From a virus: DNA of 26,866 nt. The notes beneath the pieces are model-generated. The model had not been told where the DNA came from, did not search any database, and saw only the letters and a list, made by a program, of their open reading frames with translations. This document shows, one piece after another, positions 2,638 to 22,650 of this stretch. Each line of letters starts with the position of its first letter. Positions within the stretch are counted from its first letter, which is position 1. The stretch is from positions 1 to 26,866 of the IMG/VR virus record IMGVR_UViG_3300033273_000738, one strand, 5' to 3'. The translations under genes were made by a program, and so were the position numbers.

Positions 2638-5600
2638 TTATCTCAACGCAAGTATTAGTGGTGTAACTTCTGCCTGAATTGCTTTACTAAAGTCCCTTCC
2701 TCTAACTGTAGATGTGGTTTGATCGACTTGAATTCCCTCACCGATATCAAAGTTTCCTTTTTGGTCTGTTGAAGTGAATGGAATTTGAGCTCCCTTACTA
2801 GCAACAACCTCATTCGCTTTTATTGGAAGAGCGCCTTGGAAAGGTAGTGATGTATTTATGCTAGTACCCGAACCAACATATTCAAAAGAATGAGAACTGG
2901 TTAGGATACGACTAATTCTTTGTAAGGTAAAGGGGTCATCCTCAAATAGTTCGTAAGGAACAAATTCATTAAAAGTCATTGTAGTTATTCCAGTCGTGTT
3001 CTCTGTTGCTTCAGAGATTGTAAAATAAATTGGTTTCATAACTGCAGTTGCAATTCCCGTATTACCATCCACATCTACTACAATATTTTGAGTAGGTAGA
3101 TAGTTTCTTCCAGAATTAATAACATCAATTTCGGTTAAAATTCCATCTTCATTAACAGTAGCACTTGCTTCTGCAACGATACTCTGTGGTCCTTTTGGAA
3201 TAAGAGTTCCATCATTATCTCTAATAATAACTGATGGTGGAGATGTAGGAGAAAATCCTCCTGGAGAACCAATAACTTTAATGCTTGAAAGTTCTTGAAG
3301 TGGTGCTGTTATTCTTCCAGTTGCTTGTTCTGCTGTAGGAACATCTGGATAGTTTGATAAGTCAATTTGGAAGTATAATGCTTGTCCATCAAAAGGTCTT
3401 CTTGGATTATTGTTCGTATCTGTAACTCCTTTACCAACAACTACATCAGAATTATCTCCAGGAATAACTCCAGCATTTACTTTACCAGTAAATTGTGTTG
3501 CACCAAGACCAACAGCAACTAGTCCAAAATTACCAAACGATGAGTTGGAGTTTGTAAGATCGCATTGTGCTCCAGTATCGGCATAGATTGCAATATCATT
3601 ATTGATTGTGAAGATAGAAACCAACTGAGCGTATGCATTGTTGGTCAGAGATACACCTATACCATTTTCATTATATTGTGTGAATGAATCACAAACCATT
3701 GATTTTAAATCTGCTCCAGGAATTACTGTTCCTGAATAATTTGCTACTGCATCATCACCATTAATCCTCATACCAATACTCTTGGTCATGAAGTTGGTAC
3801 AGTTTCTAACGTATGGAGATCTCCAACGATTTGTGGGACCTTCATCTGCTGGACCAGCGGCAGTATATCCACTGTTTGCAGTTACTCCAGTTATTGGGAA
3901 TGCAACTGCACCTGCACCAGTATGAGCAACACCAACAGTTTCACCAGCAAAATTTAAATTCTCAATCAGACATCCTCTTCTGACCCAGAAAACATCCAAA
4001 GTTGGATTTTGTGGTTCAATAGTGACTAGTCTTAAATCCTCTCCAGTAATTGATACATCTCTTTGAAGACCAATTGGATTATTTTCAACATATCTTCCAG
4101 GACGAATCTTAATTGTATCTCCAGGTTGAGCAATCGCTGCCGCAGCTCCAACAGTTGCTTTAGCATCACCTTCCAATAATCCAGTGTTTGAATCATCACC
4201 ATCTTTAGATACCCAAATCGTATTCTCTGTTTCTACACCAGATGGTCTCCAAGATACACCAGCACCAACAGACGCTAAACGATAATCTTTTCCATTAACT
4301 CCAGTTTGTTGATTTATATCAATTATTGCATTCTCAAGTTCTAATGTATTTTCTAACTTAGTTTCTTGACCAACAAAGAGTTTTTCACCAATAGCAGTAC
4401 CACCGACCACCTGTAATGCTGCTACGGCATTAGAGGCAGTTGCTCCAGTAGTAGATTCTACTTTAGTATCATTACCAACAAAGAGTTTTTCACCAATAGC
4501 AGTACCGCCAACAACTTGTAATGCTGCTACGGCATTAGAAGCAGTTGCTCCAGTAGTAGATTCTACTTTAGTATCATTACCAACAAAGAGTTTTTCACCA
4601 ATAGCAGTACCACCGACCACTTGTAATGCTGCCGTAACACCTGATCCTACAGCTCCAGTAGTAGATTCTACTTTGGTATCTTTACCAACAAATAACCTCT
4701 TAACAATTCCAACACCACCATCTACGTGAACAGATCCATTCGCTGAACTTGTAGCATCAAATGGGTCATTAAATGTTGCTAATTCATTAACATTTAATGT
4801 TCCATTTACATCTAGATCAAACCCTGGATTATTTGTTTTTATTCCAACTTGGGTCATCCTATAGATTGGAGCACTATTACCAGTTCCTACATATCCCCAC
4901 AAGTCCTGTGTTTGTATTCTTACAATTTCTATGGGATTACCGATATCAGCGATTGGAATGGTTGTATCTGTTCCTAAACCAAGACTATTAATCTGTCTAT
5001 AATTAAATACTGTAAATGACTGCGCTGCACCAACATAAGGATCTGCCGGATCAGTGGAACTTGATATGTAACGACCCTCATCCTGAACAAAAATACCTTC
5101 AGAGAATGCTGGTTCAAATGTTACCCAGCGAATACCATATTCATCACGGTTTAGGAACGCACCATTATCACCATGAGAACCGGCAGAATCATAAATGTTT
5201 CTTCTTACTGATAGAGTTTCTAAATCAAGACTTAATTTTCCCTGCGTAGAATTGTTGAAATCAGTAATTCCAACTCCAGGATTTGTGGTTCCTATACCAA
5301 CAGTGCCTAGACCGGTAATTACAACTGTATTTTCCTCTTCAGAATTAAATTGAAACTTTTGTACGGGTGTTGCCGTGAATATACCAACTCTATCTGTTCT
5401 AGTATCAGCAGTAAATACAGTTCCACCAACACCAACATCAAAAGATATTTTTGCAGTAAGAAAATCAACATCTAAGTTTCCTTCGATAGTTACATCTTTC
5501 TTGAAGGTCGCATTCTCATAAAAGAGTGCCTCTCCTGTAATATCAATTCCATTTAGGCAAGTTTTTCCCCATATGGTTACATTTTCAAGTACTGAATCAC

Positions 5601-22150: not shown

Positions 22151-22315
22151 TCACTTTACATAAGTGCGACCACGATAGCAGAAGGTGCCGTGAATTTCTT
22201 CACCAGTTTGCTTGCACTCATGCTTTACACCACGATAGGTGGTATGAAGAATTTGTGCATCGTGCAGTGCTGCTGCTTTGTCAATCTGCTTCTTGATCAG
22301 GTTTAAGGTGTTCAT
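22151..22315 (-). CDS. DUF4278-like small protein (54 aa)
   Basis: MNTLNLIKKQIDKAAALHDA, QILHTTYRGVKHECKQTGEE, IHGTFCYRGRTYVK. The two YRG motifs (TTYRGVKHE and FCYRGRTYVK) are the hallmark of DUF4278, a family I know from cyanobacteria and cyanophages. A good Shine-Dalgarno (CAGGAG) lies 7-8 bases upstream. It is the second gene behind the glutamine-riboswitch-like leader. Function unknown. Confidence 0.75.
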   Translation of the reverse strand: MNTLNLIKKQIDKAAALHDAQILHTTYRGVKHECKQTGEEIHGTFCYRGRTYVK

Positions 22316-22360
22316 TTGTCTACTCCTGAAATACTAGGGTGAATTTAATCTCCCGTTCCT

Positions 22361-22528
22361 TCAGTCGTTTGCGTCCCAGTACCAATCACAACCTGGAGTT
22401 GAGTCCCTTACGGTTTCAACTAATTCAAGTTTTAGTTCATCATCTAGATACTTATTTGTTATAATCCGAAACATGATTGCATCGGATTGTTGGCAACTAA
22501 GTGTGGTATAAAGTAGAAATTCTACCAT
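22361..22528 (-). CDS. Small acidic protein directly behind the riboswitch (55 aa)
   Basis: MVEFLLYTTLSCQQSDAIMF, RIITNKYLDDELKLELVETV, RDSTPGCDWYWDAND. Acidic with a Trp/Asp-rich end. Similar 55-60 residue proteins with the FLLYTT-SC...DSTP-C-W-DAND pattern occur in T4-like cyanophages as far as I remember, so this is a real gene. It is the downstream peptide of the leader described at 22529-22615. Unlike the glutamine synthetase inactivating factors IF7/IF17, which are basic, it is acidic, so direct homology to them is unlikely. Function unknown; a role tied to nitrogen status is inferred from the riboswitch. Confidence 0.72.
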   Translation of the reverse strand: MVEFLLYTTLSCQQSDAIMFRIITNKYLDDELKLELVETVRDSTPGCDWYWDAND

Positions 22529-22615
22529 GGGATGAACGCTCCGTTCCGCGACTTACTTGCGTCCAGAGGTGTCTTTCTATGCTATGTGCCTAGCGACTGC
22601 CTCTTGGATGAACGT
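22529..22615 (-). promoter_or_regulatory. Glutamine riboswitch, Downstream-peptide type (candidate)
   Basis: The leader begins about where transcription should start. It shows the conserved blocks of the glutamine-binding glnA/Downstream-peptide RNAs in order: CGTTCATCC (22614-22606), a long hairpin, GGACGCAAGTAAG (22564-22552) and GGAACGGAGCG (22547-22537). P1 pairs CGTTC (22614-22610) with GAACG (22546-22542). The inner stem pairs TCC-A(A)GAGG (22608-22600) with CCTCT-GGA (22569-22562), and GCTA/TAGC forms a small hairpin inside. A second CGTTCATCC copy (22538-22530) lies just before the ATG and can also pair with GAACG, giving an alternative fold around the GGAG ribosome-binding site. Family recognition is from memory. 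Confidence 0.75.
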
Positions 22616-22621
22616 AGGTCT

Positions 22622-22650
22622 ATTATAGACCGTTGCAATTATTTAGTCAA
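22622..22650 (-). promoter_or_regulatory. Sigma70 promoter of the riboswitch mini-operon
   Basis: Minus-strand TTGACT (22650-22645), 17-base spacer, TATAAT (22627-22622). The start is expected near 22615, exactly at the riboswitch. The -35 box overlaps CTAAATAATT (22648-22639), the late-promoter-like motif, so the same spot might be read both early and late. Confidence 0.75.

Follow-up and report, generated by a model that had tools for sequence, protein, structure and literature searches.

The minus strand of the window (the whole stretch of viral DNA that was analysed, 26,866 bases) carries the nine-base sequence CGTTCATCC exactly twice, at 22614-22606 and 22538-22530, and nowhere else, and the question raised by this locus is what the two copies pair with. 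Shuffled sequences give an expectation of 0.17 matches, and two were reached in 1 of 100 shuffles. A preliminary description read the repeat as a switch within a glutamine-type aptamer: GAACG (22546-22542) would pair with CGTTC in the 5' copy when glutamine is bound, and otherwise with CGTTC in a second copy just before a start codon, so that aptamer formation would turn translation on. The positions that it gave for GAACG, for the GAG loop (22541-22539) and for the ATG (22528) are accurate. It overlooked a third strand, GAACG at 22358-22354, which is part of GGGACGCAAACGACTGAAGGAACGGG, where the small gene ends. On the comparison of related sequences, the locus is very probably a composite glutamine-I-type riboswitch whose third arm carries a second junction, with a complete gene in the loop of the inner hairpin.

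The four strands are named a (22614-22610), b (22546-22542), c (22538-22534) and d (22358-22354), all on the minus strand. Nested pairing joins a to d and b to c, tandem pairing joins a to b and c to d, and the proposed switch has a-b alternating with b-c. The features of the locus are as follows.

22622-22650, minus strand: sigma-70-type promoter, TTGACT (22650-22645), 17 bases, TATAAT (22627-22622)
22610-22614, minus strand: 5' strand of P1 (strand a, the 5' copy of the preliminary description), pairing with 22358-22354; a/d covariation, RNAalifold
22562-22608, minus strand: P2 hairpin, UCCA (22608-22605) with UGGA (22565-22562); two-sided changes
22554-22561, minus strand: J2/3, CGCAAGTA; C22559 makes the long-range pair with G22353
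22549-22553, minus strand: 5' strand of P3, AGTCG, pairing with 22367-22363; covaries
22542-22546, minus strand: 5' strand of P4 (strand b); b/c covariation
22539-22541, minus strand: loop of P4, GAG, which with G22542 forms the ribosome-binding site GGAG; G22541 may pair with C22371
22534-22538, minus strand: 3' strand of P4 (strand c, the second copy of the preliminary description); b/c covariation
22528-22532, minus strand: 5' strand of P5, UCCCA, running into the start codon; P5 pair statistics
22361-22528, minus strand: nested gene, 55 amino acids, phrog_504; its stop codon TGA (22363-22361) lies within P3 and J3/1
22374-22378, minus strand: 3' strand of P5, UGGGA, within the last codons of the gene; P5 pair statistics, lowest-energy fold
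22368-22373, minus strand: inner junction strand CGCAAA, conserved in relatives
22363-22367, minus strand: 3' strand of P3, CGACT; covaries with the 5' strand
22353-22358, minus strand: 3' strand of P1 (strand d, GAACG 22358-22354) and G22353, the long-range partner
22151-22315, minus strand: downstream gene, 54 amino acids, phrog_545 (PHROG E 1.7e-31), DUF4278-like

For the comparison, the regions upstream of 41 related genes were read and viral sites were then fetched by patterns; the rows are related to one another and the sample is not exhaustive. Counts for strands b and c (158 sites) come from sites gathered before the use of a pattern that fixes these strands and a GAT loop, and loop counts come from loci fetched without a loop constraint. 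One fetch pattern fixes strand d, and the loci L047 and L119 were obtained with a different one. Partners in P2 were chosen by pairing, so the first three P2 pairs are selected, and partners in P5 were chosen by the CGC...AACG motif alone. Among the matches listed there are 284 sites, 274 with a P2 partner and 272 with a P5 partner of three or more pairs; where the flank was sufficient, three sites lack a P2 partner (CGTTC is present and the pairing is interrupted) and six lack a P5 partner. Helix statistics are based on 266 rows with both partners, 247 of them distinct, again among the matches listed. Two blocks characterize the marine relatives: GGACGCAAGTAAGTCGCGGAACGGAGCGTTCATCCCATG, which is near-constant, and GGGACGCAAACGACT(G/A)AAGGAACGG, found about 150-190 bases on, after the small gene. 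None of 268 antisense windows and none of 630 displaced ones matches the second block, and in gene-free relatives such as L054 the two blocks stand side by side.

Strands b and c are GAACG/CGTTC in 144 and CAACG/CGTTG in 14 of 158 sites, and never change on one side only (among the matches listed). The repeat was rightly said not to be chance, since all 158 parsed sites among the matches listed have GAACG or CAACG, three to five bases and then the matching CGTTC or CGTTG. The GAACG-GAG-CGTTC hairpin, which holds the GGAG of the nested gene, is likewise real and is conserved with compensatory change (14 of 158 sites, among the matches listed); the second copy was kept wherever the block was found, with no loss of it from a conserved aptamer. 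Two of those 14 loci, L047 and L119, also vary in P1, with CGTTT as strand a and AAACG as strand d, and in every other row among the matches listed a is CGTTC and d is GAACG. Where the strands vary, GAACG thus follows the second copy, and the 5' copy follows the far strand d, leaving a and b mismatched. All 190 distinct gene-carrying rows pair without a mismatch when read as nested, whereas tandem pairing is mismatched in 14 of the 190 on each helix (both among the matches listed). Covariation with GAACG, suggested as a check for both CGTTC copies, is present for the second copy and absent for the 5' copy.

The other helices fit the same arrangement. P3 is kept through changes from AGTCG/CGACT to AATCG/CGATT and AGTCA/TGACT, with a C.A mismatch as its third pair in 77 of 251 rows among the matches listed, and the pairs of P2 (UCCA/UGGA) are changed on both sides in relatives. 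The first four pairs of P5 are made in fractions of 1.000, 1.000, 1.000 and 0.995 of 190 distinct gene-carrying rows (among the matches listed), and in 0.959, 0.974, 0.890 and 0.683 after shuffling. A long-range pair between the outer J2/3 and the base after strand d, read in the nested arrangement, is C:G in 211, G:C in 41 and C:A in 2 of 254 relatives among the matches listed; read as tandem, the same positions become G.G or C.C in 41 of these 254 rows. The two C:A cases are L029 and L061, where strand d is followed by A, and both loci have a further diverged element of like kind (ACGCAAGTAGAGCATAAGGGAACGG...) about 790 nt past the first block. In the inner junction, the corresponding C:G combination (in the window G22541, which may pair with C22371) is kept in 254 of 254 rows among the matches listed. 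The core on the side of P3 reads CGCAAGTA in 209, CGGAAGTA in 41 and TGCAAGTA in 1 of 251 rows, and the RAAG position reads GAAG in 178 and AAAG in 73 of the same number (among the matches listed). At the level of sequence comparison, P1, P2, P3, P4 and P5 are established.

In 38 gene-free relatives, 97.2% of 27 nested pairs are made and 12 are changed on both sides, and none of 500 shuffles scored as high, either on pairs made or on two-sided changes. RNAalifold, with no structure supplied, recovered P1, P2, P4 and P5 from these relatives in the nested arrangement. The long-range pair is made in 100% of the 38 rows when read as nested and in 60.5% when read as tandem, which is broken in 15 of the 38. 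P1 and P4 show no variation within the 38 relatives and do not separate nested from tandem pairing there, so what tells the two apart is P3, the tertiary pair and the 14 gene-carrying rows, P1 being changed as well in two of these rows.

Assignment to the glutamine riboswitches is supported by this architecture, as the preliminary description had supposed: the glnA consensus is present and its helices are nested. The window has no Rfam match at the gathering threshold; at a lax threshold it matches RF01704 with 15.7 bits and RF01739 with 15.2 bits, against gathering thresholds of 33 and 35, respectively. From the first CGTTC to the last GAACG, RF01739 matches 11 of 27 gene-free loci scanned (7 plus 20) with 38-47 bits (L054 43.6, L103 42.9, L084 40.3, L071 39.6, L076 38.4, L182 46.8, L169 41.4, L167 41.0, L295 40.7, L233 40.2 and L281 40.2). 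The features of RF01739 are found in the element, namely a three-way junction of P1, P2 and P3 (by covariation and nesting), the core CGUUCA, CGGAAGUA and GAAGGAACG (with CGC for CGG in the window) and a long-range pair closing P1, as in known glutamine folds (PMC6698751).

Like Glutamine-I (RF01739), the element has CGUUC/GAACG as P1, a P2, CG(C/G)AAGUA and RAAG around P3, a long-range pair, a cyanobacterial or cyanophage setting and a DUF4278-like downstream gene. Unlike Glutamine-I, its P3 has an extra inner junction (P4, P5), whole genes can be held in P5 or P2, and the window scores below the RF01739 threshold. With Glutamine-II (RF01704) it shares CGUUCA-UCC...GGA-CGCA, GGAACGG, the C:G polarity of the long-range pair and a small peptide gene nearby. 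However, no clear P2 helix of that class was seen (the RF01704 alignment of the window, at 15.7 bits against 33, has non-standard pairs in the P2 part), and the peptide gene of Glutamine-II is downstream of the aptamer, whereas here the gene is inside it.

The nested gene (22528-22361) encodes a 55-residue protein of phrog_504, a family of unknown function, and a Pfam search with this protein gave no match. Relatives were found in 308 phage records, each of which is named as a Synechococcus phage, a Prochlorococcus phage or a cyanophage; one phrog_504-like nested gene, detected by tblastn in PV340854 (L304, 601-765), is unannotated in phage Sf-FP1. In 205 of 207 gene-carrying sites the start codon lies four to six bases past strand c, and in 196 of 207 the stop codon is at the identical place, five bases before strand d (both among the matches listed). 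In the 55-residue class, differences between similar ORFs number 7981, 3369 and 11723 at codon positions 1, 2 and 3; they fall mainly at third positions, and the nested ORFs therefore look translated. Their last six codons have about three to six times fewer changes and no third-position pattern, and unrelated nested proteins share a C-terminal tail of DAND, DAHD or DAKAD (22378-22361 in the window), which suggests that the aptamer RNA imposes these codons. Among the matches listed from loop-unconstrained loci, a GAG, GAGC or GAGT loop is found at 91 of the 101 sites that have an inner gene and at none of the 8 that lack one, tying GGAG to the nested gene. The motif is not essential, since four gene-carrying sites among the matches listed have a GTTC loop and no GAG-type motif.

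The outer P2 loop is also gene-sized in 65 of 247 distinct rows among the matches listed (e.g. L003 and L009), and some RNAs of this type carry two genes. In the P2-loop genes (L003, L009, L012, L050, L063, L101 and others), the start region pairs with bases at the stop, for example CGTTCATCTTATG...CATAAGACGC. Gene-free loci, among them L103, L182 and L193, often have one near-palindrome, TTCGCTATTCGCAAATAGCGAA, as P5 and sometimes also as P2, which looks like the insertion of a single hairpin cassette into both loops. The virus contig of L182 also contains a group I intron match (3805-4007, 87.9 bits), and in L281 a strong manA RNA (175.6 bits) lies between two glutamine-type matches, the whole spanning about 600 bases (1194-1802).

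The promoter in the window ends seven bases before strand a, and its RNA would begin near the first CGTTC; in 210 of 259 related sites among the matches listed, a -10 element agreeing with TATAAT at five or six of six positions stands immediately before the first CGTTC. Downstream, the protein of 22315-22151 matches Pfam DUF4278 with 15.7 bits, under the cut-off of 25.3, and in 244 of 260 testable sites among the matches listed the element is followed, mostly 31-37 bases past strand d, by a DUF4278-like gene that has a YRG-like motif and is preceded by a ribosome-binding site. Across 205 distinct leaders, the longest complement to the downstream ribosome-binding site averages 4.99 bases, against 4.16 in shuffled sequences, and reaches at least six bases in 36%. 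Such a blocking complement is strong in loci with CTCTTTA directly after P1; in the window, no clear blocking partner for the site was found, the longest complement being 4 bases. Shortly downstream of the element is a ThyX-type thymidylate synthase gene (21659-21024, minus strand; Pfam Thy1, E 1.9e-47).

Both halves of the element are present in 12 of 12 named phage records, S-RIM2, S-SM1, Syn33, S-MbCM7, S-SZBM1, Sf-FP1, S-P4, ACG-2014f (gene-free), P-RSM6, S-H9-1, S-SSM7 and S-SSM5, which were picked from similarity matches and so give no rate. One pattern scan of host genomes returned three contigs, none labelled as a cyanobacterium. The block was seen in L296, L297 and L298, on contigs labelled Nonlabens xiamenensis and Euryarchaeota archaeon TMED129, and may be cyanophage sequence in other assemblies.

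The duplicated CGTTC was correctly recognized in the preliminary description, and both copies belong to one composite RNA; a two-way alternative fold as the reason for the duplication did not hold up. That glutamine-bound RNA would pair strand b with the 5' copy and thereby turn on the nested gene is improbable. All four strands are mutually complementary in most relatives, the GGAG does lie at the hairpin loop, and known glutamine riboswitches are reported to be ON switches (PMC6316151). Folded without constraints, 22614-22354 takes the nested structure as its energy minimum, at -65.6 kcal/mol (a modest result relative to shuffles, with z -1.94 and 6 of 200 as good), and forcing a-b gives -64.3 kcal/mol, a cost of only 1.3; with such small margins a second state is possible, and a minor alternating state is conceivable energetically. 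However, translation-ON of the nested gene requires an a-b pairing that covariation does not support: strand b changes with c in 14 of 158 sites among the matches listed, and a does not follow. The hairpin also persists in compact, gene-free relatives with no start codon beside it, and a complete glnA consensus requires that the first CGTTC be joined to the last GAACG. On these comparisons the hairpin is P4, a single helix within a larger RNA of the glutamine type that encloses a gene, and not one side of a stand-alone two-way switch; P4 is most likely permanent.

Tandem glnA RNAs are known (PMC2864571), and two aptamers in series (a-b and c-d), with the gene in the P2 loop of the second and a steeper response, would explain why the two halves repeat each other in sequence. 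It would also give half-element Rfam matches of the kind seen, in which RF01739 matches only the inner half in L187, L194 and L232 and RF01704 matches one half in L076, L248 and L281. This arrangement too has little probability. Two independent P1 helices were not found, both helices being mismatched in the 14 of 190 distinct gene-carrying rows described above (among the matches listed); the long-range pair fails in the 41 of 254 rows (among the matches listed) and is made in 60.5% of 38 gene-free rows; and P3 covariation is left unexplained. Tandem folding of the window element gives -62.9 kcal/mol, and of 44 gene-free sites all 44 fold better nested, by a mean of 3.2 kcal/mol, the unconstrained fold being nested in 29 and tandem in none. 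As a sole fold, tandem pairing is contradicted by the covariation in L047/L119 and by the long-range pair. Least probable, and very doubtful, is a recombination cassette at the DNA level, with the blocks as exchange sites for small genes and RNA structure incidental. The blocks are near-identical, and different small genes do lie between the same blocks, in P5 or in P2 (gene-sized in 65 of 247 rows, among the matches listed). Compensatory changes in five helices, including across the gene, argue against it, as do the agreement of the block with glnA aptamers in order and spacing, the upstream promoter and the DUF4278-like gene that follows in 244 of 260 testable sites (among the matches listed). 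Gene shuffling and RNA function are compatible and can both be true.

For the composite riboswitch with a nested gene, ligand binding and the direction of switching are inferred. In line with known glutamine riboswitches, glutamine would bind the outer junction. Once folded, the RNA would hold GGAG at the three-base loop of P4 and the edge of the start codon in P5, so that the nested gene would be OFF when the RNA is folded, a direction that is likelier than translation-ON. A ribosome reaching the stop codon would open P5 and P3, sit beside P1 and keep the sensor open, which would make translation of the nested gene and formation of the sensor mutually exclusive; nutrient sensing and synthesis of the nested protein probably interfere. 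The DUF4278-like next gene probably keeps the ON response reported for glutamine riboswitches. A more elaborate version, which is possible but rather unlikely, is a gene-carrying riboswitch with two pockets, outputs of opposite sign (the nested gene closed and the DUF4278-like gene opened) and DAND/DAKAD tails imposed by the core. The inner junction (P3, P4, P5) would then be a circularly permuted glutamine junction sharing P3, perhaps a domain-swapped tandem, with its own long-range C:G pair (the one kept in 254 of 254 rows among the matches listed), and the ligand would close off the beginning of the nested gene by holding it against the stop region of that gene.

An ORF in the loop of a structured RNA is familiar from group I introns and HEARO-type RNAs, where the ORFs are endonucleases of mobile elements. 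Here, in contrast, the loop ORFs encode small proteins of unknown function within a sensor RNA. Mobile regulatory cassettes of T4-type phages consist of a repeated block of promoter and stem-loop beside exchangeable small genes; here too a block stands beside exchangeable small genes, but the block is an aptamer. A description of glnA and Downstream-peptide RNAs, with tandem forms among them, dates from 2010 (PMC2864571), and PMC9964418 lists glnA RNAs in cyanophages such as S-CREM1, where the published match of 99 nt is about the size of the gene-free form. PMC9602691, another paper on cyanophages, also mentions glnA RNAs, and PMC9004378 lists them in a methylophage. Cyanobacterial glutamine riboswitches are presented in PMC6316151 as mainly associated with DUF4278 genes. 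Among the open-access papers listed in literature searches, none mentions a gene inside this aptamer in its title or abstract opening.

If the composite reading is right, one RNA houses both a metabolite sensor and a protein gene, with aptamer helices that include the start region and the last codons of the gene, and there would be physical competition between sensing and translating. Marine cyanophages, which shape the flow of carbon and nitrogen in the ocean, commonly have this pattern, and since the gene interrupts the aptamer, standard RNA searches overlook it. Such an element would allow the reading of host glutamine by phages during infection to be tested directly.
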